Positions 1 through 32,242 of a DNA stretch of 38,234 nt are shown here, piece after piece. The notes beneath the pieces were generated by a model. That model was not told the origin of the DNA. It was given only the letters and a program-made list of their open reading frames with translations, and made no database searches. Location of the stretch: positions 1 through 38,234 of the forward strand of contig NZ_POTZ01000009.1 of assembly GCF_003236365.1 (NCBI RefSeq), written 5' to 3'. Made by a program: the position numbers and the translations under genes. This stretch comes from Streptomyces sp. NTH33 (GTDB lineage Bacteria; Actinomycetota; Actinomycetes; Streptomycetales; Streptomycetaceae). The stretch's first letter is position 1. The number at the start of each line of letters is the position of its first letter.

Positions 1-269
1 CGCCACACCTGCAGCGCGATGAGCGTACGCCGGGCACCGAAGCGGTCGCCGGCCGCGCCGATCGGCACCGTGGTCAGGAACCCCGCCACGCCCGAGATGG
101 CGAGGCCGGTACCGACCTCCCCGGCCGTGAGGCCCACGGCCCGCACGAAGAACACCGCGGACGCGGCCAGGTACAGGCCCGTGCCGATCGCGTTGACGAG
201 TGAGATGACCGCGAAGGTGCGGCCTCCGGAGGTGGCCGGGACGTAGTCGCGCCAGGTCGGAAGCCGCAT
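1..269 (-). CDS. MFS transporter, N-terminal part (cut by window edge)
   Basis: The complement reads from an ATG at 269 as MRLPTWRDYVPATSGGRTF and continues without a stop to the left edge. It has hydrophobic helices and a segment GAAGDRFGARRT, the charged loop between TM2 and TM3 that marks major facilitator superfamily proteins. About 89 residues are visible. The start overlaps the stop of the upstream tandem ATP-grasp gene (TGATG), so it is the last visible gene of the leftward biosynthetic operon. Inference: exporter or self-resistance pump for the cluster product. Substrate and full length cannot be seen. Confidence 0.85.
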   Translation of the reverse strand, partial: MRLPTWRDYVPATSGGRTFAVISLVNAIGTGLYLAASAVFFVRAVGLTAGEVGTGLAISGVAGFLTTVPIGAAGDRFGARRTLIALQVW

Positions 270-2881
270 CAGCGCTCCCCTTCCGCGCGCGCGCCCGAAT
301 CCGTCGTGCGCACCGTGACCAGGGCCAGTGCCTGCTCCGCGCGGCGCGCGGCCTCGGCTCCGTCCCGCCCGGTCGCGATGACGAACCCGGCGCGCTCCCA
401 GGAGCTGGTGACCGAGCGGAGGGTGGCGCCCGGTTCTACGGCCAGGTGCACCTCGTGCACGCCCTCGGTGGCCCGCGCCCCTTCGACGCCGCCGATCTCG
501 TCGACGCGCCCGGGCGGCGCGGTCAGGAAGCGCACGGCCGCGCCGCGCCGGACGGGCAGCGGGTCGACCGGGCCGCGGTCCTCGAGGACCTTCAGCAGGT
601 CGGCCAGGATGTCGGTGTCGTGGGTGAGGTCGATCAGGACGGTGATGGCGCCGCCGGGCAGCCGGCCCGCGCACTCGACCAGGTACGGCTGTCCGTCGTC
701 GGCGAGGATCCACTCGGAGTGCAGGACGCCGGTGCGGAAGCCCACGGTCTTCACGACCCGTGCCAGGCCGTCGCGCAGCGCGCCGGCCGTGGCCGCGGGC
801 AGGGCGGCGGGCACGGTGTGGCCGGTCTCGACCGGGTGTCGCGAGTCCTGGATCTGCTTGGCGGTGACGTTGACGAAGCCGAGTCCGCCGTCGTGGACGA
901 GGGCTTCGACGCTGAACTCCGGTCCCCGCAGGCGCTGTTCGGCCAGGAAGCGGGCGGTGTCCGGGTAGGCGGCACGCAGCGTGGGCTCGTCGGCGGCGGT
1001 GGTGTGGCGCCAGGCGGCGGCCACGTCGTCGGCCGGGCCGAGCAGTTGGACGCCCAGGCTGGCCTGGCGGTTGGCGGGCTTGAGCACTGCCTCGCCGCCC
1101 TGCGCCTCCCGGAACGCGGCCACGTCGGCGGCGGTGTCGACCACCGCCCACGCGGGCTGCGCGACCCCGGACCCGTCGAGCGCGGCACGCAGCCGACCCT
1201 TGTCGCGCAGGATCCGGGCGGCACCGAGGCCCGCACCGGGCAGACCCCAGGCCTCGGCGAGCGCGGCCGCCGTCACGACCGCGTACTCGACGACCGGGAC
1301 GACCGCGCGCACTCGCTCCGGGCGCGGCACGGCGCCCGCGATCCGCTCGGGGTGCGCCTCGTCCTGGGTCGGCGCGGGCCGCAGCGCGGCCACGGACGGG
1401 TGCCGCTCCGGCAGGCCCGCAAGGCCGCGTGCCGCGATGACGGCGGGCTCCTCCAGGACGAGAACCGACCCGGCGGGCAGCTGGGCGTCCAGCTTGGCGA
1501 GCATGACCGGGCTGTAACCGACGAGGACGTGCGTGACGCTCCGCGGCACCTCGGATTCAACGTCCAGGGTGATCGCGGCCCGCACCCGCTCCTCCAGGGC
1601 GTCGAGCTCGGCGATGGTCGGGGCGTCGATGAAGAAGGACACGGCGCGGTCCTCGGAGTTGCGCAGCTCGGTCAGGCGGGCACCACGGTCCTTGTGCACA
1701 AGGACGGCGCGCAGGGCGGGCGCGTCACCGGCGGCGCCGGGCGCGATACGGGGCCACAGGCCGCCGTCGCCGACCCAGACGGGCTCGGTGTCGAAGCCGT
1801 CCACGGTGACGTCGCGCAGCACGCCGGGCGTGTGCTCCAGGTAGACCTGGCGGGCCACCCGGGCCGGCGCCGGGTAGGAGGCGGGCTCGCCGAGGGCGAT
1901 GCGGACGATCTCAGGCTCCAGCGGGGCGCCGGTGGCCAGTTCGTACAGCACGCACAGCCCGTCGCCCGGCGTACGGGCCGCGACCTCCATCAGGTACGGA
2001 CGCCCCGCGACGTCGACTCGCCACTCGGCGTGCGCCATGCCGTCCTGGAAGCCGAGCGCGGCGAGCATCCGCGCGTTGGCGTCGAGCAGCACCGCGTCGT
2101 GGTCGAGTCGGTCGCTGGGCACGGTGTGGGACAGCTCGACGAACGTATGGGCGTGGGAGTCGGTGGTGTCCTTGCGGGTCGCGGAGGCGAACAGGACGTG
2201 CCCGTTCTGCACCAGGGACTCCACCGAGTACTCCTGTCCGGCGATCTTCTCCTCGACGAGCACGGTCTCGTGCTCCGGGTAGGTGTCGAGCAGTACCCGC
2301 AGCGCACCGGCGTCCGCCACGGTCTCGACACCTGAACTGGAGTGCCGGCTCGCGGGCTTGACGACGGCCGGATACGGCACCGCGGCCGCATCGAGCCCGG
2401 CCCGCTCCTCCGGCGGCACGGTCAGGGACACGGGGCTGAACTCGGGCAGGTACCAGCGCTGCAGGTACTTGCTGCGGCAGGCCCGGGTGGCGCGCAGCCC
2501 CGGTGTGGGGACGCCGAGGGCGTCGGCGAGCAATCCGGTCGGTTCCACCTGGGTCTCGCCGACGGCGTACGCGCCGACGATGCGGTAGGCCTCCCGCCAG
2601 CGCCGCGCCGCGGTGATCACACCCGGCAGGTACGAGTTGTCGCGGGCGACGTCGCCGTCGACGAACGCGAACTCGTCGATGAGAGCCGCCGGGTGGGCCG
2701 GGTCCTCGGACGCGGCCAGGGCCTCGTCCCGCCACGCGGACGGCGTGACGAGCAGGATCTTCAGCCCGCGCCGGGCCAGCTCCTCCAGGTACAGGGGCGC
2801 ACGGCACACGACCAGGAAGGATCCGGTGAGGACGAAGGCGTCCGGGCACACGGTCTGGGGATTCGACTCGTTGATGGTCAC
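269..2881 (-). CDS. Tandem (double) ATP-grasp ligase
   Basis: About 870 residues if translation starts at the GTG at 2881, which has AGAGGA just upstream. A longer reading from 2947 adds a low-complexity leader that overlaps an intergenic hairpin and is less likely. Two ATP-grasp modules lie in series. Module 1 has a lysine strand near residues 168-185 (VVKPASRHSSSG) and an acidic metal-binding strand near 290-312 (PYLMEVAARTPGD). Module 2 repeats this near 595-610 (VLKPANRQASLG) and 720-742 (PYLVECAGRLPGG). ATP-grasp enzymes form acyl-phosphates and join carboxylates to amines. The lineup in an aminophenylalanine cluster suggests amide or peptide bond formation. Both modules keep their lysine and acidic residues, so both may be active. 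It follows the Rv2466c-like gene after a hairpin-bearing gap and is coupled to the MFS gene. Substrate unknown. Confidence 0.88.
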   Translation of the reverse strand: MTINESNPQTVCPDAFVLTGSFLVVCRAPLYLEELARRGLKILLVTPSAWRDEALAASEDPAHPAALIDEFAFVDGDVARDNSYLPGVITAARRWREAYRIVGAYAVGETQVEPTGLLADALGVPTPGLRATRACRSKYLQRWYLPEFSPVSLTVPPEERAGLDAAAVPYPAVVKPASRHSSSGVETVADAGALRVLLDTYPEHETVLVEEKIAGQEYSVESLVQNGHVLFASATRKDTTDSHAHTFVELSHTVPSDRLDHDAVLLDANARMLAALGFQDGMAHAEWRVDVAGRPYLMEVAARTPGDGLCVLYELATGAPLEPEIVRIALGEPASYPAPARVARQVYLEHTPGVLRDVTVDGFDTEPVWVGDGGLWPRIAPGAAGDAPALRAVLVHKDRGARLTELRNSEDRAVSFFIDAPTIAELDALEERVRAAITLDVESEVPRSVTHVLVGYSPVMLAKLDAQLPAGSVLVLEEPAVIAARGLAGLPERHPSVAALRPAPTQDEAHPERIAGAVPRPERVRAVVPVVEYAVVTAAALAEAWGLPGAGLGAARILRDKGRLRAALDGSGVAQPAWAVVDTAADVAAFREAQGGEAVLKPANRQASLGVQLLGPADDVAAAWRHTTAADEPTLRAAYPDTARFLAEQRLRGPEFSVEALVHDGGLGFVNVTAKQIQDSRHPVETGHTVPAALPAATAGALRDGLARVVKTVGFRTGVLHSEWILADDGQPYLVECAGRLPGGAITVLIDLTHDTDILADLLKVLEDRGPVDPLPVRRGAAVRFLTAPPGRVDEIGGVEGARATEGVHEVHLAVEPGATLRSVTSSWERAGFVIATGRDGAEAARRAEQALALVTVRTTDSGARAEGER

Positions 2882-2924
2882 GGCTTCCTCTGTCGATACT
2901 GGTGCCGGTGTGGTCGTGAGGGGT

Positions 2925-2957
2925 GGGGTGGGGGTGCGCCGCCGCACACCCCACCCC
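2925..2957. terminator. Strong GC-rich stem-loop between two genes of the operon
   Basis: Bases 2925-2938 (GGGGTGGGGGTGCG) pair with 2943-2957 (CGCACACCCCACCCC) around a four-base loop, with one small bulge. A second inverted repeat, CCGGCC/GGCCGG, lies just beside it near 2970-2983. It sits in the roughly 105-base gap between the Rv2466c-like gene and the ATP-grasp gene. There is no U tract, so it may be an attenuator or mRNA-processing structure and not a full terminator. Confidence 0.5.
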
Positions 2958-2986
2958 GCGGTCCGAGGGCCGGCCTCGGCCGGACC

Positions 2987-3601
2987 TCAGTCGAAGCGGA
3001 GCGACCCCGTACGCGTCCTTTTCAGCTCGAAGAAGTCGGGGTGACCCGCCAGCGTCCGCGCCGCGTCGAAGAGTCTCGCCGCCTCCTCACCACGGGGGAT
3101 CGAGTTCAGAACGGGGCCGAAGAAGGCCACCCCGTCGATGTGGATCGTGGGCGTGCCCACGTCCTCGCCGACCGGGTCCATCCCCTCGTGGTGGCTCTTG
3201 CGCAGATGCTCGTCGTACGCGTCACTGTCCGCGGCGTCGAGCAGCGACTCCGGCAGCCCGAGCGCGGCGACGGCCTCGGCGGCGACGGCCCGGTAGTCCT
3301 TGTTGCCGCCGTTGTGGATGCGGGTGCCGAGCTCGGTGTAGAGGTCGGCCAGGACCTCCTCGCCGAGCTCCTGAGCGGCCGCCGTGCAGATCCGGTTCAG
3401 CGCGAGGGAGTTGTCGACGAGCGTGCGGTACCAGTCCGGTAGCTCGCGGCCCTCGTTGAGCACGTACAGACTCATCAGCCGGAACCGCAGGTCGAGTTCG
3501 CGCAGCTGGGCGACCTCCATGATCCAACGGGAGGTGATCCAGGCGAAGGGGCAGGCCGGGTCGAAATAGAAGTCGACCTTCGGGATACGGGTCTCGGTCA
3601 C
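2987..3601 (-). CDS. Rv2466c-family (mycothiol-dependent nitroreductase-like) DsbA-fold protein
   Basis: 204 residues from a GTG at 3601 that overlaps the stop of the AMP-ligase gene (GTGA). The thioredoxin/DsbA fold is shown by [17 protein letters not shown] at the N-terminus and by the family hallmarks [19 protein letters not shown] and FFELKRTRT near the C-terminus. From memory, these match Mycobacterium Rv2466c almost word for word. Rv2466c uses a CPWC active site and mycothiol. Here the site is C17-P-F-A20, so the second cysteine is missing and only monothiol chemistry is possible. The protein is cytoplasmic, with no signal peptide. In this cluster it could reduce, isomerise or ligate a thiol to an aromatic nitrogen intermediate. 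That role is inference. Confidence 0.88.
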
Positions 3602-5274
3602 GCGGACACCTCGGCGGTGGCGGCGAGCGTCTTGCCGTCGGCGGCGGCGAGGTAGGCGGTCAGGTCCGCGTACTTCTCGCGCAGCTGCCGCTTGAGGACC
3701 TTGCCGGTGACGCCGACCGGGAAGTCGGCCTCGCTCTGCGCGATCTCCAGCAGGCCGAGCAGCGGGTGGCCCGCGGCCTGCAGCGCCTCGTTGGCCTGGA
3801 CGAGCAGCTTCTCCGGGTCGGTGCCGGCGGCGGTGACCACGGCGACCGGGACGACCCTGTCGTCCTTGCGGCCCGCGATCACGGTGACGTCGCCGGTGTC
3901 GGGCACGTCGTTGAGGACGACCTCCTCCATGAACACCGAATAGCCGGTGCCGTTCTCGGTCTCGATGGCGTCGGCGGCGCGGTCGACCAGGAAGAAGTCA
4001 CCATGCTCGTCACGGTAGGCCATGTCGCCGGGCAGCCAGTAACCGGCCAGCTTGAAGCGGTAGGTGGTGTCGGAGTCGGCCCAGTAGCCGGGGGTGATGG
4101 CGGGTCCCCTGGCGGCGAGGTAGCCGACCTCGTTGTCGTCGGCCTTGCTGCCGTCCGTGCGCAGGATGGTGACCTCGGCGACGCCGACCGGCTTGCCGAC
4201 GCAGCGGTCGTTGCGCTCGGTGTCCAGGGTGCGGATCTTCAGCAGGACGCCCCAGCCGAGTTCGGTGGTGCCGAGCCGGTCGAAGAACGCGGCGGGCGCG
4301 AGGCCCTGGCTGCGCATCGACAGGACCTTGGTGATGTGCGCCTGGTGCACGGCGTCGCCGATGGACACCCACGCGTTGACGGAGTCGACCGAGCCCGGCT
4401 CCGGGTCGATGGCGGCCAGCTCGGCGTAGCCGTGCGCGAACGACATCACGGAGGTCGGCTGGTACCGCTTGACGGCGGCGGCGAGTTCGGTGCCGCTGCG
4501 GTCGCTGAGCGCGACGATGGGGGTGCCGCCGAGGACCGCGTACACGGTGTACGCGACGCAGCCGAGGTGCGACTGGGGCAGCGCGGTCATCATCAGGGCG
4601 CCCGGCTGCTCCTCGTGGTCGACCAGGCGGAACTTCGGGCCCGAGACGATCGACTTGTGGGTGTGGATGGTGGGCTTCGGCCGGCCCGTGGTCCCGGAGG
4701 AGTGCAGGAGCGCGACCGGGTCCTCGTCGTGGTGGTTCCAGTACGCGTCCTCGGGCAGGCTCGCCGCGGGCGGCGCCGGCAGCTCGGCGGCGGACTGGAT
4801 CCACCGCAGGCTCGTCAGGTCCTGTGCGGCGGAGCCGAGCAGGTCGATGCGGGCCTGGTCGGCGTAGAGGCCGACCGGCGTCGTCTGCTCGATCAGGGAG
4901 ACCGCGATGGCCTGCGACGCATTGGAGTTGATGAGCAGGGCGACCGCGCCGATCTGGGCGAGGGCGTAGAAGTGCAGGGAGTACGCGATGGAGTCCTCGA
5001 ACCAGACGGCGACGCGGTCACGGGGCTGCACGCCCTGCTCCCGGTACCAGGTCGACCAGCTCTGGGCGAGTACGTCGAACTCGGCAAGGCTGAAGTCCTG
5101 CTTGGACCCGCCGTCCGGGGTGGCGATGGGGCGCGCGGCGTAGATGAACGGCACGTTTGGGTGCGGGTTCACGGCGAGGGCCTTGCGCAGCAGGTTGCCG
5201 CCGCCGATCGAGCTGTCGGCGGCCACGGCCGCGCGCTGCTCCGGCGTGAGGACGGTCGGGGCGAATGTGGTCAT
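3598..5274 (-). CDS. AMP-forming acyl/aryl ligase (ANL superfamily)
   Basis: 558 residues from an ATG at 5274. ANL motifs are visible: the P-loop [11 protein letters not shown] near residues 191-201, a core motif [12 protein letters not shown] near 333-344, the hinge aspartate region in [21 protein letters not shown], and a C-terminal lysine in [11 protein letters not shown] near 518-526. It should adenylate a carboxylate and may pass it to CoA or directly to an amine. The glycine-rich A5 motif deviates from the common YGxTE form, which suggests an unusual substrate. It overlaps the following Rv2466c-like gene by four bases. A 132-base gap separates it from the aminodeoxyprephenate dehydrogenase gene, and that gap could hold an internal promoter. 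Some ANL enzymes in other clusters act on nitrogen (diazotisation); nothing here proves that. Confidence 0.85.
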
Positions 5275-5406
5275 GAGGCACCTTTTCGGTATTCTGGGTC
5301 GGACATCGGTGCGAATGCGGGCAGGCCTGGTCGGGCTTGACCGGGTCTGTCCTGGGCGCGCTGAAGTGCCGTGCGGACTCTGGGGCGCGGAAAACGCGCG
5401 GACGCC

Positions 5407-8662
<3,256 letters not shown>

Positions 8663-8901
8663 GAGTCTGCCCCCCATTGGCACAGGGAACTCTGCAGGTC
8701 CGCGGGCCGCGGTGGCCACCCGGTCGATAGCTCGGGTCACCGCACTGCACACAGTACGGGGATACATAACACCCAAATCGGAACATAGGCCCCAAGCTGT
8801 AGCATCCTGTCGTGCCGAGAGCCGACCCTTGCCAAGATCGGCGCTCCGAACCCATAGTTTCTTCCGTCCGAGGGGGAGGACAGGACGGAGATGGGGGAGA
8901 A
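8663..8901. promoter_or_regulatory. Divergent promoter region of the biosynthetic cluster
   Basis: 239 bases without a gene lie between the mutase (leftward) and the NRPS (rightward), so promoters for both units should be here. The middle (about 8745-8815) is clearly more AT-rich than its surroundings, with candidate -10-like sequences such as GGATACATAACAC and TGTAGCAT. The NRPS start has a G-rich Shine-Dalgarno tract (GGGGGAGAA) just before the ATG at 8902. No cluster-specific regulator is visible in the window, and I could not fix individual operators. Confidence 0.55.
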
Positions 8902-11900
8902 ATGAGTACGGTGAACCACACCGGGAAAACCGGAATCGAATCGGCCGGAATCGAGGAATCCGCCGGCGTCGGCGACCTGATCGGACTGCTCGACGCGCAG
9001 GTGCGGACCCGGCCCGACGCCGTCGCGGTCGGTCACGGCAACGACACCCTGACGTTCCGGGAACTGGCCGAGTCCGCTCGCTACCTGGCACTCCACCTGC
9101 GCACTCTCGGCGTCGGCAAGGACACCTGCGTCGGTCTGTTCACCAGCCTGGGGCTGCAGCAGGCGATCGGGGTCTGGGGCATCCTGCGCTCGGGCGGCGC
9201 CTATCTGCCGCTGTCGCCGGAATATCCGGACGAACGCATTAGCACCATGATCGAGGACTCCGGAATCACGGTCGTGCACACCGAGGAGAAACTACTCGAC
9301 CAGGTCCGAGAACTCGCGGGAGCCGGGGTTCGCATCGTCACAGAAAGAAACGTGGAGGAGTTCAGGAAGAGTCTCGAAGAAAACGCTAAGAGCGTTCCAA
9401 TTCCACAACCGGATCCGGAAGACCTGGCCTATGTCATCTACACCTCGGGAAGCACCGGACGCCCCAAGGGCGTGATGATCGAGCACCGCGCCATCGCCCA
9501 TCAGATGACCTGGCTGAAGAGCGCGTACGGGCTCGGTCCCGATAAAGTAGTCCTGCAGAAGACACCCCTCAGTTTCGACGCCGCTCAATGGGAGATCCTG
9601 GCCCCCGCATGCGGCGCCAGAACAGTGATGGCACCGGCCGGCTCCCATCGCGACCCGGACCGTATCATCGACGAAATCGTGGTGCACTCGGTGACCACGC
9701 TGCAATGCGTTCCGACTCTTCTCGCCGCGCTCCTCGATCACCAGGGAATGAGCCGCTGCACTTCTCTGCAACAGATATTCAGCGGCGGTGAGAGCCTGTC
9801 CCGGAAACTCGCACTGCACTGCACCCGGATCCTGCCGCACTGCACCTTGGTGAACCTCTACGGCCCCACCGAGTGCACCATCAACACCTCCGCGCACACC
9901 GTCGATCCCGCGGCCCTCGCCCCGGAGGACGGTCCGCGGTCGGTGCCCATCGGCCGCCCCGTACCGGGCCTGCGCTACCACGTCCTGGACGACCGGGGCC
10001 GCCCGGCCGGCCCCGGCGAGACCGGTGAACTGCACATCAGTGGAGTGCAGTTGGCCCGCGGCTATCTGCACCGCCCTGACCTGACCGCGGAGCGCTTCGT
10101 CCCGTCGCCGCACCCCGCGCCACACGACCGGCTCTACCGCACGGGCGACCTGGCCCACTGGAACGCCGACGGCACCGTGCAGTTCACGGGCCGCGCCGAC
10201 AACCAGGTCAAGCTGCGCGGCCACCGCATCGAGCTGGACGAGATACGCCTGGCGATCGAGGCGCACGACTGGGTCAAGAACGCAGCCGTCCTGGTCCGCG
10301 ACGACCCGCGCACCGGATTCCAGAACCTTGTCGCCTGCCTCGAACTCAGCCCACGCGAGGCCGTGCTCATGGACCAGGGCACGTTCGGCGACCATCACAT
10401 CTCGAAGGACTCCAGGCTCCAGGTCCGGGCACAGCTGTCGACGGCAGGCGTCCGCGACGACCTCGCGGAGGCGCGGGCCGTGGACCTGCCCGGCGCCGAG
10501 GCCACGTCCGAACAGCGCCGTCGCGCCTTCGCCCGCAAGACCTACCGCTTCTACGAGGGGGGAGCACCCACCGAGCAGGACATCCTCGCCGCGCTCTCCC
10601 GCGTGGTGCCCTCGGCTCCGCCGCGCCGCCCCGAGCAGCTCACGCTCACCGAACTCGGCGTCATCCTAAGGGATTTCGGCCCGCACACCAGCGCCGAACG
10701 CCTGCTGCCCAAGTACGCCTACGCGTCTCCGGGGTCGCTGTACGCCACCCAGCTCTACGCCGAGATCACGGGCTGCCTGCCCGGCCTCGCCCCCGGCCTG
10801 TACTACTACCACCCGCTGCGCCACCAGCTGGTGCTCGTCCGCCCGGCCCACGCCACCGACGCGGCGTTCGGCATCACCTTCCACTTCGTGGGCCGCAGAT
10901 CCGCCATCGAACCGGTCTACAAGACCAACATCCAGGAAGTCCTGGAGATCGAGACCGGTCACATGCTCGGCCTGTTCGACGAGATCCTGCCCGCGTACGG
11001 CCTCGGTCTGCGGACGCTGCCCCACGACCCGCGGGCCCGCGACCGGTGCGGCTGCGCCGACGACGACCCCTGCCTCGGCTCGTACGCCCTGGTCCCGGCG
11101 GACCCCGGCACCCGCCCCGAGTGGCGCGACCGCGTGGACGTCCACGTCCAGATCCACCCCGGCAGCGGTACGGGCCTGCGCCCCGGCCAGTACCGCCACC
11201 GCGCCGGCCGCCTGGAGCGGATCGCGGACGAGCTGGTGCTCAGGCGGCACGTCATCGCCATCAACCAGCAGGTCTACCAACGGGCGTCCCTCGGCATCAC
11301 CCTCACCGTCCACACCCCCGGGGACGAACCGGAGTACGTGAACCTCGGCCGGGCCCTGCAGTACCTCCAGCACAACACGGCCGGCCTCGGCTTCATGCCG
11401 GCCGGCTACAGCTCGCGCTCGGGCCGCGACCTGCCCGCCGCCCGCCGCATGACCACGCTGCTCGAAGGTCTCGGCCTGCCCACCGGGCCCCTGTACTTCT
11501 GCGTCGGCGGCCGGATAAGCGACGACCAGATCGCGCACGAGGGCATGTACGAGGACACCGTCCACATGAAGGGCCCGGCCGAGCTGGTCAAGGACGACCT
11601 GGCCGCCCGGCTGCCCGAGTTCATGGTCCCGAACCAGATCCTGATCCTGGAACGGCTGCCGCACACCGCCAACGGCAAGCTGGACGTCCAGGACCTCACC
11701 GAGCTCGCGGACACCGCGGTGGCCCGCGGCATCCGGCCCGTCGTACCGCCCCGCAACCGCACCGAGGCGCGCCTGTGCGAGCTGTGGAAGGCGGCCATGC
11801 ACCGCGACGTGGTCTCCGTCAGGGACGACTTCTTCGCCTGCGGCGGCAACTCTCTGATCGCGGTGTCCCTGGTGCACCGGATCAACCGCGAGTTCGGCTG

Positions 11901-12804
11901 TTCCCTGCCCCTGCAGGTGCTGTTCACCGCACCCACGGTGGAGCAGCTCGCCGAACGCATCGCCGCCGACACGACCCCGCCGCCCCGGCTGGTACCACTG
12001 TCCCGGGGCCACCGTGCGGCACACCCGCGGCCGGACGGCACCGGCGACCGGCCCGTTCTGTGCTGGCCGGGCCTCGGCGGCTACGCCATGAACCTGCGGC
12101 TGCTCGCCTCCCGCTTGGCCGAGGGCCCGGACTCCCGCCCCCTGTACGGGATCCAGGCGTACGGCCTCAACGAGGGCGAAATCCCCCATGACAGCCTGGA
12201 GGAGATGGCCGCGGCCGACGTACGCGCCCTGCGGCGGGTGCAGTCCGAGGGCCCGTACACGCTGTGGGGCTACTCCTTCGGCGCGCGGGTCGCCTTCGCC
12301 GCCGCGCGCCGGCTGGAGCACTCGGGCGAGAAGGTCGACCGCCTGGTCCTCCTCGCGCCCGGTTCACCGCGGCTGCCGGGCCCACCGTCCTGGACGGCGG
12401 CAGGAGCCGACTTCGGCGACCGGACGTTCCGTACGATCCTGTACTCCGTCTTCGCCGGCCGCACCGACGGCCCCCTGCTCGACACCTGTCTGCGCGAGGG
12501 CACCGACGAGGAGAGCTTCGCGCGGTTCGTGCTGCGCCACTTCCCCGACCTCGGCCCCGCCACGGTCCGCCGGGTCATCCGCGTCGCCTGCCGTACGTAC
12601 GGCTGGGAACCGGCACCCGGCCCCGTCACGGCCCCGGTCACCGTCCTCGTGGCCCGCGGCGACGAGGAGTCCTTCATCGAACGCGACCCGGCCTTCGCGG
12701 CCGGCGCGTCCACCGTCGTCCGCCTGGACACGAACCACTACGGGCTCCTGCGGAACCCGGGTGTGGACGAACTCGCCCATGTCATCCGCCATTCGATCAT
12801 CTGA
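8902..12804 (+). CDS. Indigoidine-synthetase-like NRPS, A-Ox-T-TE
   Basis: 1300 residues, close to the length of BpsA/IndC. Domains in order: an adenylation domain (A3 motif YVIYTSGSTGRPKG near 179; LSFDAAQWEIL near 223; NLYGPTECTIN; A8 near 434-450); a flavin-type oxidase domain inserted between A8 and A10 (about 540-850, starting with ARKTYRFYEGG); A10 TANGKLDV near 919-926; a carrier domain with FFACGGNSLIA (Ser near 984); and a thioesterase with GYSFG (Ser near 1125). I read the specificity code as DAWQFGLINK, very close to glutamine codes and to my recollection of BpsA. Expected chemistry: load L-Gln, cyclise and oxidise it to an aminopyridinedione that can dimerise to blue indigoidine. 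The usual indA/indB neighbours are absent. The first roughly 900 bases use noticeably more A/T-ending codons than the rest. Confidence 0.93.
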   Translation: MSTVNHTGKTGIESAGIEESAGVGDLIGLLDAQVRTRPDAVAVGHGNDTLTFRELAESARYLALHLRTLGVGKDTCVGLFTSLGLQQAIGVWGILRSGGAYLPLSPEYPDERISTMIEDSGITVVHTEEKLLDQVRELAGAGVRIVTERNVEEFRKSLEENAKSVPIPQPDPEDLAYVIYTSGSTGRPKGVMIEHRAIAHQMTWLKSAYGLGPDKVVLQKTPLSFDAAQWEILAPACGARTVMAPAGSHRDPDRIIDEIVVHSVTTLQCVPTLLAALLDHQGMSRCTSLQQIFSGGESLSRKLALHCTRILPHCTLVNLYGPTECTINTSAHTVDPAALAPEDGPRSVPIGRPVPGLRYHVLDDRGRPAGPGETGELHISGVQLARGYLHRPDLTAERFVPSPHPAPHDRLYRTGDLAHWNADGTVQFTGRADNQVKLRGHRIELDEIRLAIEAHDWVKNAAVLVRDDPRTGFQNLVACLELSPREAVLMDQGTFGDHHISKDSRLQVRAQLSTAGVRDDLAEARAVDLPGAEATSEQRRRAFARKTYRFYEGGAPTEQDILAALSRVVPSAPPRRPEQLTLTELGVILRDFGPHTSAERLLPKYAYASPGSLYATQLYAEITGCLPGLAPGLYYYHPLRHQLVLVRPAHATDAAFGITFHFVGRRSAIEPVYKTNIQEVLEIETGHMLGLFDEILPAYGLGLRTLPHDPRARDRCGCADDDPCLGSYALVPADPGTRPEWRDRVDVHVQIHPGSGTGLRPGQYRHRAGRLERIADELVLRRHVIAINQQVYQRASLGITLTVHTPGDEPEYVNLGRALQYLQHNTAGLGFMPAGYSSRSGRDLPAARRMTTLLEGLGLPTGPLYFCVGGRISDDQIAHEGMYEDTVHMKGPAELVKDDLAARLPEFMVPNQILILERLPHTANGKLDVQDLTELADTAVARGIRPVVPPRNRTEARLCELWKAAMHRDVVSVRDDFFACGGNSLIAVSLVHRINREFGCSLPLQVLFTAPTVEQLAERIAADTTPPPRLVPLSRGHRAAHPRPDGTGDRPVLCWPGLGGYAMNLRLLASRLAEGPDSRPLYGIQAYGLNEGEIPHDSLEEMAAADVRALRRVQSEGPYTLWGYSFGARVAFAAARRLEHSGEKVDRLVLLAPGSPRLPGPPSWTAAGADFGDRTFRTILYSVFAGRTDGPLLDTCLREGTDEESFARFVLRHFPDLGPATVRRVIRVACRTYGWEPAPGPVTAPVTVLVARGDEESFIERDPAFAAGASTVVRLDTNHYGLLRNPGVDELAHVIRHSII

Positions 12805-12825
12805 CGCCCGAGAAGGAGCAGGACC

Positions 12826-13050
12826 ATGCCCCACGTGATCGTCAAGCACTTCCCCGCCCCGCTCGACGACGAGCGCCGCGCCCGCCTCGCCGCCCGCATC
12901 AGCGAGGCCCTCCAGGAGGCCTTCGGCGTCGACGACGGCGCCGTGTCGATCGTGCTGCAGCCCGTCGAGCCCGAAGTGTGGGACACCGAGGTCTACCAGC
13001 CGGAGATCGCGGACCGCCGCGACCAGCTGCTGAAGGTGCCCTCGTACTGA
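12826..13050 (+). CDS. 4-oxalocrotonate tautomerase family protein
   Basis: 74 residues from an ATG at 12826 with GAAGGAGCAGG upstream. The start lies 21 bases after the NRPS stop, so the two are almost certainly co-transcribed. It begins Met-Pro, and removal of Met would expose the catalytic N-terminal proline of this superfamily (PHVIVKHFPAPLDDERR). The length fits the small 4-OT family, which forms oligomers. These enzymes catalyse keto-enol tautomerisations and related Pro-1 chemistry. Directly after an indigoidine-type NRPS it could isomerise or tailor the pyridinedione product or an arylpyruvate. The substrate is inference only. Confidence 0.85.
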   Translation: MPHVIVKHFPAPLDDERRARLAARISEALQEAFGVDDGAVSIVLQPVEPEVWDTEVYQPEIADRRDQLLKVPSY

Positions 13051-13153
13051 GCCGCGGTCACCGTCGGTCGTTCACTTCCGCGTTCGGCCCGCCACCCGTT
13101 CCGTTGAAATGAACGGATGGGCATGTCCCGGCCGCATCCCGCGGCATTGCCTG

Positions 13154-13183
13154 GAAGGGGGCCTTTGCCCAAGGGCCCCCTTC
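13154..13183. terminator. Stem-loop terminator after the NRPS-tautomerase unit
   Basis: GAAGGGGGCC (13154-13163) pairs perfectly with GGCCCCCTTC (13174-13183) around a ten-base loop. It lies about 100 bases after the tautomerase stop. It probably ends the rightward transcript. There is no T run, as is common in Streptomyces. Confidence 0.65.
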
Positions 13184-13219
13184 TGCGATGGGGTACGCGT
13201 GCGAATCGCTGAGCAATGG

Positions 13220-13640
13220 CCCCTTCTCGAACGCATCGCGGAGGAGAGCCGACAGGGCCCGGCAGACGTTCAACTGGTGCCCACGGCCCACCCCCTCCGC
13301 CTCCAAGTGATCGAGGAAGTCCTCCACCACGGTCGGTGTCACCGCATTCAGCTTCCGCGATCCGATCACCGGGTTGATCTGTGCCCTGAAGCGGCTCGCC
13401 AGGGTTTTCGCGGTCGAGTACTCGGTTGTCTTGCGCTGCCGGGGCAACCACGTCCGGGCGTACTCCTCCATCGTCTGCCGGCCCAGTTCGCGGCGTGCCT
13501 CGGCCACCGGGGGAGCCGTCTTCTCCCGGTCGGCGTACAGCTCCGTCAGCCCTTCGACCGCCGCGTCCTGGGTCCGGTACCCGGTTTCCTCTCGCTGTCT
13601 CCCCCGAGCGTCGCGGAACCGGATGGTGCAGGCGTGCGGG
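13220..13640 (-). pseudogene. Tyrosine recombinase (integrase) remnant
   Basis: The complement encodes an integrase N-terminal region: TIRFRDARGRQREETGYRT (arm-binding domain), EYARTWLPRQR, and the core-binding SAM-like domain ending in NVCRALSALLRDAFEKG. The catalytic domain with the R-H-R-Y residues is absent. After about 13220 the frame runs into unrelated sequence and the terminator. The N-terminal side abuts a truncated rhomboid gene on the other strand. It is a dead fragment of an actinobacterial integrative element. No tRNA or clear att site is visible beside it. Confidence 0.75.
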
Positions 13641-13662
13641 CAACAGTTGGGCTTGGAACAGC

Positions 13663-13950
13663 GCCTACCTGGTGCTCTACCCGAGGGCACGGGTCTGGAT
13701 CCTCGTCCCCTTCCTCCTCTTCCTGCCGCTGCGGCTGCCGGCCTGGCTGGTGCTGGGCTTCTGGTTCGTGCTGCAGGCGTTCTACTCCACCGGCGAGGCC
13801 ATCGCCGAGGCGGGCACCGTGGCATACCTGGCCCACGTCGCCGGTTTCGTCGCGGGCATGCTGCTCGCCTGGCCCCTCAAGCCCGGCACTCCCCCACCAC
13901 CCGAACCGGGCGGCATCCTCTTCGGACGCCAGACGCGACGGGCCTGGTAA
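13663..13950 (+). pseudogene. Rhomboid-family intramembrane protease, C-terminal remnant
   Basis: The frame reads AYLVLYPRARVWILVPFLL, then three more hydrophobic segments and AYLAHVAGFVAGM, which holds the conserved histidine of the rhomboid catalytic dyad, and ends at a stop at 13948-13950. The N-terminal helices and the GxSG serine that should precede AYLVLYP are missing. Upstream the frame is antisense integrase sequence. The break near 13640-13660 therefore marks a fusion of two unrelated fragments. Not expected to be functional. Confidence 0.75.
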
Positions 13951-26575: not shown

Positions 26576-27361
26576 TCACCGCACCGCGGCCAGGAAGGCC
26601 CTGGTCCGCGCGTGCCGGGGTGCGGTGATGACCTGCTGGGCGGGGCCGACCTCGACGACCTGGCCGGCGTCGAAGAAGGCCACCCGGTCGGCGACCTCAC
26701 GGGCGAAGCCCATCTCGTGAGTGACCACCACCATGGTCATGCCGGAGGTGGCCAGGTCCCGCATCACCGTGAGCACGTCGCCGACGAGTTCGGGGTCCAG
26801 GGCCGAGGTGGGCTCGTCGAACAGCATCAGCTTGGGCCGCATGCACAGCGCCCTGGCGATGGCCACCCGCTGCTGCTGCCCGCCGGACAGGTGCCGGGGG
26901 AAGGCCCGGGCCTTGTCCCTGAGTCCCACCTGGTCGAGCAGGCCCAGGGCCCGCTCGGTGGCCACCTCCTTGGACTCCTTCAGCGCCCGCCGGGGTGCCT
27001 CGACGAGGTTCTCCAGCACCGTCATGTGGGGGAACAGGTTGAAGTGCTGGAACACCATGCCGATCTGGGTGCGCCGGCGGCAGATCTCCCTGTCGCCGAG
27101 CTCGTGCAGCTTGTCTCCGCGCTGCTCGTAGCCCATGACCTGGCCGTCCACCCACATCCGGCCGCCGTCGACGGTCTCCAGGTGGTTGATGCAGCGCAGG
27201 AAGGTGCTCTTGCCCGAGCCGGAGGGGCCGATGAGGCAGACCACCTCGCCCCGCCGGACCTCCAGGTCGACTCCCTTGAGGACCTCCAGTCGCCCGAAGT
27301 GTTTGCGGACCTTCTCGGCCCTGACCATCGGGACCGGTTCCGCGACGCTGTCGGCGGTCAT
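26576..27361 (-). CDS. Amino-acid ABC transporter ATPase (GlnQ-like)
   Basis: 261 residues, ATG at 27361 overlapping the permease stop by ATGA. Walker [11 protein letters not shown]-loop in [11 protein letters not shown], signature LSGGQQQR, Walker [13 protein letters not shown], and H-loop VVTHEMGFA are all intact. The motif [13 protein letters not shown] and the closing region [13 protein letters not shown] are typical of polar-amino-acid importers. It powers uptake with the permease and binding protein encoded just upstream. Confidence 0.95.
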
Positions 27362-28296
27362 GACTTTCTCCCGGTGGCGATCGGCGCATGGGTGCTCAGC
27401 ATCTGCTTGAGCTGCTGCAGCGGGGTCGGCGGCAGCGTGCGGTTGCCGCGCGCGAAGCGGCGCTCGACGTAGAACTGGCCGACGGTGAGGACGCTGGTGA
27501 CGACCATGTACCAGATGCTGGCGACGATGAGCAGCGGGATGGTCTGGAAGTTGCGCGAGTACAGGATCTGCGCGGAGTAGAGCAGGTCGGGTACGGCCAG
27601 CACGCTCACCAGGGCGGTGGTCTTCAGCATGCCGATCGTCTCGTTGCCGGTCGGCGGGATGATCACCCGCATCGCCTGCGGCAGGATCACCCGGCGCATG
27701 GTCTGCATCCTGGTCAGGCCCAGCGCTCCGGCGGCCTCGGCCTGGCCCTGCTCCACGGACAGGATGCCGGCCCTGACGATCTCCGACATATAGGCGGCCT
27801 CGTTGAGGCCCAGGCCGAGGATGGCCGCGACCAGCGGGGTGATCAGCCGGTTGGCGTCCAGGGACAGTCCCGGGATACCGAAGGTCAGCGTGGGGTAGAG
27901 CGCCGCCAGGTTGTACCAGAACAGCAGTTGCACCAGGACCGGTGTCCCGCGGAAGAACGAGACGTACAGGAACGCCGCCGACCGTACGACCGGGTTGACC
28001 GACAGCCGCATCACCGCCAGGACGACGCCCAGCACGACACCGAGAGCCATGCAGATCGCGGTGAGTTCCAGCGTGACGACCAGTCCGCGGCCGATGGAGA
28101 CGTCCCGCAGGTAGGTGTTGACGACATCCCAGCCGAAGCGGGGGTTGGTGAACACCGACCGCAGTGTCGCCACGCCGACCAGCAGCAGCACGGCTGCGGT
28201 CAGCCAGCGGATCGGGTGCCGTTTGGGGACGACGGTCAGGTCGGAGTCGGACACCTTGTCGATGTCCAGTGCTGAAGGGGCCGGCAGGGTGGCCAT
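27358..28296 (-). CDS. Amino-acid ABC transporter permease (HisM/GlnP type)
   Basis: 312 residues from an ATG at 28296, one base after the binding-protein stop. About five or more membrane segments are visible, with the coupling loop [21 protein letters not shown] characteristic of the family. [15 protein letters not shown] is another hallmark. An N-terminal cytoplasmic extension of about 25 residues precedes the first helix. A single permease gene implies a homodimeric channel. Confidence 0.94.
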
Positions 28297-28297
28297 G

Positions 28298-29215
28298 TCA
28301 ACTCCCGGACTTCAGGAGCAGGCCGGCCGGGATGTCCCACTTCTTCATGAGCGACTCCATGGTGCCGTCGTTCAGAAGGCTCTTCATGGCCGCGTCCAGG
28401 GCCGGCTTGAGCGGGGAGTCCTTGAGCAGGGCGATGCCGGTGGGAGTCGGCTCGTAGTCGGTGCCGGGTGCGAGTTCGAACTGGCCGTTGGACGCCTTGG
28501 CCTGCAGCGCGAGCGAGACCGAGTCGGCCATGACCGCGTCGACCCGGCCGCTGACGACCGCCAGGTTGGCGCCGTCCTGCGAGGGGAACAGGTCGATCTT
28601 GACGGGAGCCTTGCCGGCGCCGGTGCACTTCTTGGAGATCGCGGGGAGTTGTTCGAGGCCCTGGATGCTGCCCTTCTGAGCGGAGAGGGTGCGCCCGCAC
28701 AGCACTGCCGGATCCATCTTGAGTCCCAGCGGGTTGCCCGTCCTGACCGCGATACCGGATCCGCCGTTGAGGTAGGGCACGAAGTCCACGGTCTTGGACC
28801 GCTCGGGGGTGATGGAGAAGGCGGAGGCGCCGACGTCGAACTTGCGGGCGGCCAGGCCGGGCAGGATGCCGTCGAACCCGGCGTTGACGTGGCCGACCTT
28901 CAGGCCCAGCTTGGCGCCGAGGGCGTCGGTCAGGTCGATGTCGAAGCCGATCATCGTCTTGTTGTCGGTGTCGAAGTACTCGAACGGCCGGTAGGACGCG
29001 TCGCTCGCCACCGCGAGCACGCCCTTGGATTTGACATCGGCGGGGAGCAGCGCGACGGCCGCGGTGTCCACCGCCGTCGCGGCGGCGGACCCGCCGGACG
29101 CCGGGGCGGACGGTCCCGAGCCGGTGGAACCGCTTCCGGCGGATGCGTTGGTACAGCCGGCGACGGCCAGTACGAGGGCTGCCGCGAGGAGGGGGAGACG
29201 TATCGGATGGCGCAC
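28298..29215 (-). CDS. Amino-acid ABC transporter lipoprotein (substrate-binding)
   Basis: 305 residues from a GTG at 29215, with GAAGGA eight bases upstream. A lipoprotein signal peptide ends in the lipobox LAVAGC, and a Ser/Gly/Ala-rich linker follows. The mature part is a family 3 solute-binding protein: YRPFEYFDTDNKTMIGFDID, AGFDGILPGLAARKFDVGAS, FSITPERSKTVDFVPYL. Such proteins bind polar amino acids or similar compounds. As it is coded with an oxygenase and a deacylase, its ligand is probably a modified amino acid. Confidence 0.92.
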   Translation of the reverse strand: MRHPIRLPLLAAALVLAVAGCTNASAGSGSTGSGPSAPASGGSAAATAVDTAAVALLPADVKSKGVLAVASDASYRPFEYFDTDNKTMIGFDIDLTDALGAKLGLKVGHVNAGFDGILPGLAARKFDVGASAFSITPERSKTVDFVPYLNGGSGIAVRTGNPLGLKMDPAVLCGRTLSAQKGSIQGLEQLPAISKKCTGAGKAPVKIDLFPSQDGANLAVVSGRVDAVMADSVSLALQAKASNGQFELAPGTDYEPTPTGIALLKDSPLKPALDAAMKSLLNDGTMESLMKKWDIPAGLLLKSGS

Positions 29216-29287
29216 GGGATCGTCCTTCTTGAGGGAGGGCAGGACAGGGAGGTGGTGCGTCAGCGGGTGGCCGGCCGGAGGGGCGGC

Positions 29288-29355
29288 GGGTGACCGCACC
29301 GGCGGCACCCGGAGGGTCAGCGGGTGACCGCACCGGCGGCACCCGGAGGGTCAGC
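29288..29355. repeat. Two perfect tandem copies of a 34-base unit
   Basis: Copies 29288-29321 and 29322-29355 are identical. A third, degenerate copy begins at 29356 (GAGTGGCCGCACCGGCGG), and traces of another lie upstream near 29265. The unit includes the TGA stop of the deacylase gene, so the repeat looks like an expansion of the gene's 3' end into the spacer before the binding-protein gene. Confidence 0.9.
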
Positions 29356-30369: not shown

Positions 30370-31395
30370 TCAGCCCTTCGCGGCCTGGCCGGCGGCCTGC
30401 TCGGCGGCCAGCATCCGGGTGAGGATCCGGCGGGCCTTGGCGACGCCGGCGTCCTGGCCGATGAGCACGTCGTGCTCGCCGTCGGGGCGCTCCCGCATGC
30501 CGATCTCCTGCTCCCGCAGCGCGTCGGCGTCCTCGCGCAGCACGGTCTCCAGTCCGACCTCGAGCTCCTTGGTGGCCCACTCGGCGTCGACCGCGAAGTT
30601 GCGGCTGAAGGCGTAGTAGTACCAGGTGGTCCGCTCGTCGACCGGGGTGATCCCGTTGAGCACCTTGATGAGGTAGCCCTCCTCGCGCGGGCGCCCCTGG
30701 GCCGTGATGCCGGAGTGCAGCACGTGGTAGCTCGGGATGTGGAACTCGGTGGCGTGGAAGCGGTCGTACAGGCCCTCGGTGCCCATGGTCCGCGCGTACA
30801 GCGGCGGTGCCTCGACGCCGGGCATGAGCCGGTCCACGGTCACCACGTTGCCGTCCACCTCGACCGTGATGCCGTACTCGGGGATGTAGTCGTCACCGAC
30901 GGTCGTCTTGTGCAGGAACGTCTCGTGGGTGAGGTCGAGCAGGTTGTCGTGGATGAGGTCGTGGCGGCACTCGAAGAGCATCGTGTGGGTGACCGTCGCC
31001 CACGCGGGGTCGTTCATCCAGTGCGTGTCGGGGACCAGGCTCTCGTCGGCGAGGTCCTCGTCACCGGTCCACACCCAGATCCAGCCGTCCTTCTCCACGA
31101 CCGGGTAGCGTCGCACGCGGGCCCGGGCGGGGATGGCGGCCTGGGCGGGGACGCGGGTGCACACGCCGTCGGGCCCGTAGGCGAAACCGTGGTACCCGCA
31201 CTCGACGGAGTCCCCCACGGTGCGGCCGGCCGACAGCGGATAGGCGCGGTGGGCGCAGCGGTCGGCGAGGGCCACGGCCGCGCCGTCCTGGGTGCGGTAC
31301 AGCACGAGGGGTTGCTTGCAGACGACCCTGCGTACGGGCTCGCGGGTGACTTCGGTGGACCAGGCAGCGACATACCAGGTGTTCAGAACGAACAC
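30370..31395 (-). CDS. Rieske oxygenase, alpha subunit (VanA-like)
   Basis: 341 residues from a GTG at 31395 with GGAGG seven bases upstream. The Rieske cluster motif is complete: CAHRAYPLSAGRTVG, then CGYHGF (C-x-H and C-x2-H). The mononuclear iron site is visible in DNLLDLTHETFLH with the expected Asp and His residues. The length and start (FVLNTWYVAAWSTEV) match the vanillate-demethylase-like group, which oxidises or demethylates aromatic or small quaternary compounds. First gene of a leftward operon; electrons should come from the VanB-like reductase at 25019-25993. The substrate cannot be read from sequence. Confidence 0.93.
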   Translation of the reverse strand: MFVLNTWYVAAWSTEVTREPVRRVVCKQPLVLYRTQDGAAVALADRCAHRAYPLSAGRTVGDSVECGYHGFAYGPDGVCTRVPAQAAIPARARVRRYPVVEKDGWIWVWTGDEDLADESLVPDTHWMNDPAWATVTHTMLFECRHDLIHDNLLDLTHETFLHKTTVGDDYIPEYGITVEVDGNVVTVDRLMPGVEAPPLYARTMGTEGLYDRFHATEFHIPSYHVLHSGITAQGRPREEGYLIKVLNGITPVDERTTWYYYAFSRNFAVDAEWATKELEVGLETVLREDADALREQEIGMRERPDGEHDVLIGQDAGVAKARRILTRMLAAEQAAGQAAKG

Positions 31396-31423
31396 GGCCA
31401 GACCTCCTCTGGATGCAGTGCGC

Positions 31424-31438
31424 ACACCGTATACAGTG
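31424..31438. promoter_or_regulatory. Candidate FCD-GntR operator overlapping the operon promoter
   Basis: The palindrome ACCGTATACAGTG with core GTATAC (31429-31434) lies in the 139-base gap between the Rieske and GntR starts. FCD-type GntR proteins often bind short GTNTAC-like palindromes. On the complement, GTTGTC about 16 bases ahead of TATACG could be the -35/-10 pair, so bound regulator would block the operon promoter. Confidence 0.5.
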
Positions 31439-31534
31439 AGTTCAGGGAAGACAACGGTCCGCACGAGGTGGAATTCTTCGGCGGACCGGAACCGAAATCC
31501 CGGTCCGGAACGGCGCTCAGGACGGAGAACAGAG

Positions 31535-32242
31535 GTGCGGCCTTTGCGCAGCGACCCCAGGGACACCCGGCCGTTGGGAGTCCGGGTGTACGAACAACTC
31601 CGCGACGAGATCGTCTCGGGCGGTCTGGAAGCCGACGCCACCCTGGTGCAGGAGCAGGTGGCGGAGCGGCTGGGCGTGTCCCGCACCCCGGTACGGGACG
31701 CGCTGAACCGCCTCGCCCACGAGGGGCTGGTCACCTGGCTCCCGGGCAGCGGATACATCGTCAACGCCCTGCAGCCCAAGGACATCGCCGAGGTCTACCA
31801 GGTGCGGCAGTCCCTGGAGACGCTGGCCCTGCGACTGGCCTGCGGCCGGCACGACCGGGCCCGGCTGGCCCGGCTGGCGGCGGTGATCGAGGAGATGGCG
31901 GCCGCCGAACCGGCCGACGCGGCGGCCCAGTTCGAACTCAACCGGGCGTTCCACCGCCTGCTGATCGAGCCCTGTGACAACGCGCTGCTCCTGCGGATGA
32001 TCGACACCCTCTGGGACCACCCGGTCAACCGCCGCATCACCCGCTCCTACGTCCACGAGGCGGGCAACGTCCCGCTCATGGTGAGCGAGCACCGCGCCCT
32101 CCTGGAGGCCGCCCGCGCGGTGGACGAGGAGCGCCTCGTCCGTCTGGCGACCGAGCACATGTACACCGGCTACCGCGAGACCCTGCCCGCCGACAGCGGC
32201 CTCGACCTGGTGCCACGGCCGGAGTCCGAGGAGCCCGGCTGA
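31535..32242 (+). CDS. GntR-family regulator, FCD subfamily
   Basis: 235 residues from a GTG at 31535 with GGAG eight bases upstream. The winged helix reads RVYEQLRDEIVSGGLEADAT, then VAERLGVSRTPVRDALNRLA and HEGLVTWLPGSGYIVN. A helical FCD effector domain follows, with metal-ligand-like residues in FELNRAFHRLL and SEHRALLEA. It is divergent from the Rieske/ABC operon and is probably its substrate-responsive repressor. FCD members usually sense organic acids or amino-acid-like metabolites of the pathway they control. Confidence 0.92.
   Translation: MRPLRSDPRDTRPLGVRVYEQLRDEIVSGGLEADATLVQEQVAERLGVSRTPVRDALNRLAHEGLVTWLPGSGYIVNALQPKDIAEVYQVRQSLETLALRLACGRHDRARLARLAAVIEEMAAAEPADAAAQFELNRAFHRLLIEPCDNALLLRMIDTLWDHPVNRRITRSYVHEAGNVPLMVSEHRALLEAARAVDEERLVRLATEHMYTGYRETLPADSGLDLVPRPESEEPG

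Follow-up and report, generated by a model that had tools for sequence, protein, structure and literature searches.

A Streptomyces gene cluster that combines a predicted diazotase pathway for 4-aminophenylalanine with an indigoidine-type synthetase

In the biosynthesis of pristinamycin, chloramphenicol and obafluorin, 4-aminophenylalanine is supplied by enzymes of the PapABC type. The cluster analysed here contains a predicted route of this kind. It lies at the start of a stretch of 38,234 nucleotides from Streptomyces sp. NTH33 (positions 1 to 38,234 of contig NZ_POTZ01000009.1, hereafter the window), and encodes in addition a putative diazotase and an indigoidine-type synthetase. Most known diazotases need a hydroxyl group on the substrate, as stated in PMC11705231. 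In tasikamide (aha and tsk clusters), described in that paper, a cyclic peptide and an alkyl-AHA diazonium are joined by a Japp-Klingemann reaction. A diazotase-type cluster with 3,4-AHBA genes, set out in PMC11429834, is different from the one presented here. We consider it probable that the window holds one end of a conserved actinobacterial two-module cluster, in which a core makes 4-aminophenylalanine and diazotises it (or its peptide), and a second module turns glutamine into an aminopyridinedione.

We examined 33 distinct loci having a diazotase homologue of at least 46% identity, the window included. Genes for a chorismate mutase, a 4-amino-4-deoxychorismate (ADC) synthase and a dehydrogenase lie near that of the diazotase in 31 of them, i.e. 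the window and 30 others, which we call core loci; by their labels these span three families (f1, f4 and f17). Streptomyces sp. NWU339 (L009) matches window 1-13184 at about 97%, with an extra piece at 90% up to 13591. The grouping of these genes is therefore not due to chance. The 33 loci comprise 11 named ones, 12 further ones (counting the window), then 4 and 5 more, and a second cluster of Streptomyces bauhiniae reached through its synthetase. Loci with two names (L009/G142, L013/G489, L014/G002, L016/G309 and L017/G502) were counted once, L020-L022 (22-27% identity) were left out, and G316b and G023, which hold 46-47% homologues without the trio, are among the 33 and outside the 31. The genes of the relatives were called by a home-made codon-position filter, and the absence of a gene was judged by tblastn (>60 bits) within the fetched stretch only.

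The core and its diazotase candidate

The gene block studied is 1-13050. Its minus-strand genes are transcribed from the chorismate mutase gene toward the contig end, and several adjacent genes share 1-4 bases, as in an operon. The genes are as follows.

<1-269, minus strand: start of a gene for a major facilitator superfamily (MFS) exporter, cut by the contig end, with the remainder on contig C720 of the same genome
269-2947, minus strand: double ATP-grasp ligase of L-amino-acid-ligase type (PF13535 118 bits, PF18603 104.6 bits)
2987-3601, minus strand: Rv2466c-like thioredoxin-fold protein with a single active-site Cys, in CPFA (PF22234 271.9 bits)
3598-5274, minus strand: ANL-family enzyme, predicted to diazotise aryl amines with ATP and nitrite (AvaA6 diazotase is the best-scoring NCBIfam model)
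5407-6273, minus strand: predicted 4-amino-4-deoxyprephenate dehydrogenase, PapC-type (PF02153 38 bits, PF20463 22.8 bits)
6270-8360, minus strand: ADC synthase, a PabA-PabB fusion (TIGR00553 and TIGR00566 both over cut-off)
8357-8662, minus strand: type II chorismate mutase, predicted to be PapB-type and to act on 4-amino-4-deoxychorismate (PF01817 65.5 bits)
8902-12804, plus strand: A-Ox-T-TE synthetase of indigoidine-synthetase type (PF00501 296, PF00550 57.6 and PF00975 72 bits)
12826-13050, plus strand: tautomerase, 4-OT/PptA-like, of 74 aa (PF01361 35.7 bits; PRK01271 73.6 bits, under the cut-off of 83)

Among solved chains the closest to the window ANL enzyme is 9xb8 (65% identity), followed by CmaA6 and Tri17 at about 30%. 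In a fold search with a predicted model of the enzyme CmaA6 and Tri17 stand at the top, i.e. the nearest folds are those of solved diazotase-type enzymes; 9xb8 is absent from the rows of that search, the library of which ends in April 2026. We dropped the idea of identifying 9xb8 from its title, this chain not being in the fold-search rows. The ATP/Mg motif SSGTTG (S192-G197), the catalytic E338 and the C-terminal K525 are invariant across 29 sequences; these are general to ANL enzymes and not specific to diazotases. On sequence and predicted model, the window enzyme most likely groups with the nitrite-using diazotase-type enzymes, and it is a predicted diazotase. Given this grouping, and the nitrite-making genes that adjoin its relatives, the aryl amine is more likely to enter an N-N bond than to be acylated.

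The nitrite-making genes are creE and creD. Both occur in 21 of the 31 core loci, so that a nitrite source for the pathway is found through the relatives; CreE alone is found in G679. The lyase of L014 passes the nitrosuccinate-lyase cut-off (740.2 over 650). A nitrate-reductase-like gene adjoins that of the diazotase in L018 and G781, with a score below the cut-off. We rejected nitrate reductase as a general source of nitrite, since it was found only in L018 and three f17 clusters, and the latter carry CreE and CreD too.

The precursor route is marked by the ADC synthase, which scores 349.5 bits with TIGR00553 (pabB; equivalog cut-off 328.4) and 161.9 with TIGR00566 (cut-off 121.05). The CM_2 and PDH families were found for the mutase and dehydrogenase; the NCBIfam models for prephenate dehydrogenase are all below cut-off for the protein of 5407-6273, and the amino-specificity of both enzymes is read from their linkage. 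The relatives also carry a 3-deoxy-D-arabino-heptulosonate 7-phosphate (DAHP) synthase, of class II in L014 and NWU339 and of class I in G781 and G701, which fits a single metabolic need served by different enzyme classes. We note that one core subtype contains a weak AMP-binding match with an aldehyde-dehydrogenase-like gene (L014 2825-5556, with equivalents in G309 and G502); the pair is perhaps LuxE/LuxC-like.

Alignment with Rv2466c of Mycobacterium tuberculosis places CPFA of the window protein at the CxxC of the former, and the same replacement is seen without exception in the 22 core loci where the gene occurs, so that none has the CxxC. The double ligase belongs to the L-amino-acid ligases by its ATP-grasp_4 (118 bits) and LAL_C2 (104.6 bits) matches. 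Its two halves are 33% identical over 262 columns, and its N-terminal half (residues 21-461) corresponds, at 60-63%, to the single ATP-grasps of L014-L017 and L019. An ATP-grasp ligase is present in 28 of the 31 core loci; in one of these, the second, hybrid cluster of S. bauhiniae, the double ligase gene is seen only as fragments.

The window holds only one end of the cluster, the remainder of which is split over two other contigs of this assembly of 1200 contigs. The MFS fragment is 93% identical over 89 aa to the MFS of L009:15005-16330 (PF07690 85.2 bits). Contig C720 encodes the MFS protein, ATP-grasp B, a cysteine-synthase-like enzyme of the PALP family and the beginning of a further ATP-grasp, and C386 encodes a methyltransferase, an aminotransferase, a LuxR-type regulator, pieces of creE and creD, a class II DAHP synthase and a phosphoenolpyruvate (PEP)-mutase-like protein. 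We assign these genes to the cluster because in NWU339 all of them form one row past the double ligase. The PEP-mutase/isocitrate-lyase-like protein (PF13714; L042 244-975, minus strand, and orthologues) is kept in many of these clusters with no obvious role.

At the other end, the stop of the match to NWU339 at 13184/13591 places the cluster edge just beyond the tautomerase. An integrase fragment (PF14659, PF22022) lies right after the tautomerase gene at 13058-13825 (minus strand), close to where the similarity stops. Further on, and outside the cluster, the window encodes a teichoic-acid-type poly(glycerophosphate) glycerophosphotransferase (PF04464; 19783-22560, minus strand). A Rieske oxygenase of vanillate O-demethylase type (30370-31785, minus strand) is encoded near an amino-acid-type ABC transporter (26576-29308).

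The genes named at 1-13050 by the original prediction were all confirmed in the sequence, and both its 4-aminophenylalanine route and its remark that the Rv2466c-like protein is monothiol agree with the ADC synthase scores and the CPFA motif. The block is only part of the cluster, continuing on C720 and C386. The original prediction had missed, outside the window, the source of nitrite, the cysteine-synthase-like enzyme and the additional ATP-grasps.

The second module and its association with the core

Pfam recognises the A, T and TE domains of the synthetase. The A domain is split by an insert that none of the Pfam oxidase models matched; it aligns at 61% with that of P0159, a protein named putative IndC. 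The specificity positions agree with those of P0159. These features uphold the Gln-type A-Ox-T-TE synthetase as first described, with glutamine as its predicted substrate. The tautomerase travels with the synthetase, and in P0146, P0175, P0184 and others PF01361 lies within the same protein.

In 14 of the 31 loci such a synthetase is encoded no more than 12 kb from the core, directly beside it in 12 and at 8-12 kb in G112 and G679 (49-50% identity). The PALP gene is found in those 12 loci (that of the window strain being on C720) and is absent from the remaining 19 stretches, giving a Fisher p of 6e-7 for the link (2e-4 in an earlier count of 22 loci), with related genomes treated as independent. 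The PALP protein of NWU339 falls in the cysteine-synthase subfamily TIGR01136 (344.8 over 344.15), and at 337.3 is below the cysK equivalog cut-off of 350.95. In one draw of 392 genomes of the genus, 62 have an Ox-synthetase and 12 a diazotase of at least 70% identity; 10 of those 12 have both, nine with the two genes on the same contig and no more than 12 kb apart (p 2.6e-7).

In these hybrid clusters the synthetase stands on one side, and PALP and the further ATP-grasp (graspC) lie downstream of the core ligases. The PALP gene of NWU339 overlaps that of ATP-grasp B (graspB) by 35 bases when called with first start codons, and in loci such as G142, G092 and G158 the nitrite genes lie beyond PALP and graspC. 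G362 and G309 (contig C94) have PALP and graspC, with the synthetase not in the stretch.

The module was also sought away from the core. Of 66 synthetase matches, 19 lie, as judged by coordinates, no more than 16 kb from a PALP match (E <= 1e-110); seven of these are in hybrids and 12 elsewhere. Among those of the 12 that were opened, G221, G289 and G324 have ATP-grasps and G345 and G056 have none within 20 kb. G221 carries a synthetase, PALP, a double ATP-grasp, an MFS protein and a methyltransferase; its contig of 18 kb has none of the core genes. In G324 one open reading frame of 751 aa (L149 10852-13107), beside an Ox-synthetase and tautomerase, fuses an ATP-grasp to PALP, which suggests that the product of PALP is an amino acid passed to the ligase. 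PALP was not found at five diazotase-free synthetase loci (G044, G148, G302, G297 and G286; 20 kb each). A unit that recurs joins the indigoidine-type synthetase to a cysteine-synthase-like enzyme and ATP-grasps; it occurs alone, with the ATP-grasp-PALP fusion, or with the diazo core.

The cluster synthetases occupy at least three parts of a tree of 129 rows; the labels of this tree are incomplete, and only the separate positions are used, not a count of label changes. For G316 the identities are 55% for the synthetase, 71-79% for the diazotase, ADC synthase, ligase and PALP, and 61-63% for PDH and Rv2466c. The cluster synthetase may have been replaced by others of the same type, a weak conclusion since PDH and Rv2466c of G316 are also low.

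Proposed pathway and alternatives

We infer the following pathway, in all its reactions, from the gene content, gene order, conservation and matches of fold and motif described above. Chorismate would be converted via 4-amino-4-deoxychorismate and 4-aminophenylpyruvate to 4-aminophenylalanine, the last step by the cluster aminotransferase. CreE and CreD would make nitrite from aspartate, and the ANL enzyme would adenylate the nitrite and then nitrosate the aryl amine, so that a diazonium forms. The ATP-grasp ligases could build the diazo residue into a peptide, whose export would fall to the MFS pump. Thiol adducts of the diazonium are probably dealt with by the monothiol Rv2466c protein, in self-protection or capture, a role we assign because nine of the 31 core loci are without it in the stretch seen. 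In hybrids, the cysteine-synthase-like enzyme may attach the glutamine-derived ring to an alanine unit, and the second double ATP-grasp may ligate the resulting heterocyclic amino acid. Because the second-module genes flank the core and continue its operon, a single joined peptide is expected, and we lean to this for the hybrids, with two co-produced peptides as a possibility. The diazonium may in the end be kept, coupled, reduced or lost, and the final product or products are likewise proposals.

A number of observations weigh against this two-module pathway. The window enzyme scores 343.7 bits with the AvaA6 diazotase equivalog NF058622, and does not reach its cut-off of 975; the solved chain nearest to it, 9xb8, bears the deposition title 'Fatty-acid-CoA ligase FadD'. 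The substrate of the putative diazotase is a guess, as is the nucleophile of PALP. Neither CreE nor CreD was seen in the window locus, L010, L011, L012, G112, L018 and G177 (up to 10 kb downstream), or in G459 and G636 (18-19 kb downstream), i.e. nine of 31. The window contains no nitrite gene, and its own genome has only the creE/creD pieces on C386 (L095), where, at about 6178-6797, creE/creD lack two stretches, of about 1.06 and 1.6 kb, that are present in NWU339. The nitrite supply of this strain may thus be broken or misassembled, collapse not being distinguishable from real loss. Rv2466c was not seen in L015, G309, G502, L019, L018, G701, G910, G177 and G636, nor an ATP-grasp in the fetched stretches of L018, G177 and G636. 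The core occurs without the second module (G369, L010, L012, G489 and others) and the second module without the core (G221, G289), where the absence of a synthetase is weakly tested in L018 and G502, having less than 5 kb of upstream sequence. Four core-only genomes were searched: L012, L015 and L019 have an Ox-synthetase elsewhere, that of L012 in its second, hybrid cluster, and L010 has none.

The occurrence of each module without the other argues for a supercluster making two separate peptides, one of diazo type and one with a glutamine-derived ring, their co-regulation perhaps reflecting a joint action. S. bauhiniae, in which a core-only (L012) and a hybrid (L119/L120) cluster lie about 100 kb apart on one contig of 641 kb, points the same way. 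The modules are interleaved in the hybrids, however, and the overlap of PALP with graspB and the position of the nitrite genes beyond PALP and graspC argue against two independent units, so that we hold two peptides to be a real but lesser possibility. The presence of two exporters was dropped as a sign of two products, since the core-only G369, L010 and L012 also carry two.

Other alternatives concern the fate of the aryl nitrogen. Reduction of the diazonium with the help of the Rv2466c-like protein could yield an aryl hydrazine, which an ATP-grasp would then acylate to an aryl hydrazide. The Pfam name of PF22234 is mycothiol-dependent nitroreductase Rv2466c, ATP-grasps are in most core loci, and spinamycin retains a hydrazide from a diazotase pathway (PMC11705231); against this, the second active-site Cys is gone wherever the gene occurs, and the gene is not always seen. 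We therefore dropped Rv2466c as an obligatory diazonium reductase, and consider the hydrazide unlikely. Diazotisation might instead serve to remove or replace the amino group, giving a phenylalanine-, tyrosine- or thio-type residue and a product with no N-N bond. The AvaA6 and CmaA6 pathways do so for avenalumic and p-coumaric acid (PMC10777205), a p-alkyl diazonium would be without the stabilising hydroxyl, and the monothiol protein could provide a thiol; yet the nitrogen of 4-aminophenylalanine would be lost only to yield common amino acids, which makes this decidedly unlikely. More doubtful still is coupling of the diazonium of a 4-aminophenylalanine peptide to the glutamine-derived, electron-rich aminodihydroxypyridine, which would give an arylazo-pyridone, a natural counterpart of the synthetic azo-pyridone dyes arising from the fusion of two pathways that also occur apart.

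The original prediction envisaged no N-N chemistry, an ANL or ATP-grasp enzyme forming an amide between the glutamine heterocycle and the 4-aminophenyl amine. Its two halves are indeed associated, and what it named as refuting it, that they are never neighbours, is false, given the 14 core loci with both. Yet CmaA6 and Tri17 lead in fold and, behind 9xb8, in sequence, on which ground an amide-forming ANL ligase was dropped; there would be no role for CreE and CreD, which most core loci have in the cluster; and the synthetase was not seen in 17 of 31. Amide formation by the ANL enzyme is thus not supported, given its place among nitrite-using enzymes, the single joined product is not borne out by halves that are separable modules, and the amide scheme as a whole is highly improbable.

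Comparison with known systems

No described cluster with this gene set was found in a full-text literature search of open-licence PMC papers, in keeping with the initial statement that no product of such a set is described. As complete clusters are held by NWU339 and other strains, the products are directly testable. Others are working on this enzyme family, judging from the deposited structure: PDB 9xb8/9xbs ('Fatty-acid-CoA ligase FadD') is 92% identical to the enzymes of G781, G830 and G970, which have the same core in their clusters.

The window enzyme resembles CreM, AvaA6, CmaA6, SpiA7 and Tri17 in its fold (tested for CmaA6 and Tri17), its ATP-binding motifs and the nitrite-making genes in the clusters of its relatives. 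It differs in that those act in 3,4-AHBA, hydroxyanthranilate or hydrazone pathways, and this one stands with a 4-aminophenylalanine route. The trio of ADC synthase, mutase and dehydrogenase is that of PapABC-type supply, but here adjoins a diazotase, not genes for N-methylation, N-oxidation or NRPS (non-ribosomal peptide synthetase) loading. The synthetase shares domain order, specificity positions and a tautomerase neighbour with the indigoidine synthetases IndC and BpsA, but in 12 core loci it is set apart by its linkage to genes for double ATP-grasp ligases and a cysteine-synthase-like enzyme. Like tasikamide, the system combines a diazotase pathway and an NRPS pathway in one strain; here, however, one cluster contains both modules, and a single A-Ox-T-TE unit serves as the NRPS. 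In a cluster family found in at least three actinobacterial families, nitrite-dependent diazotisation is apparently linked with 4-aminophenylalanine, which does not have the hydroxyl group required by most known diazotases. The parts are all of known kinds; their combination, and the tie of a diazotase to 4-aminophenylalanine, appear to be new.

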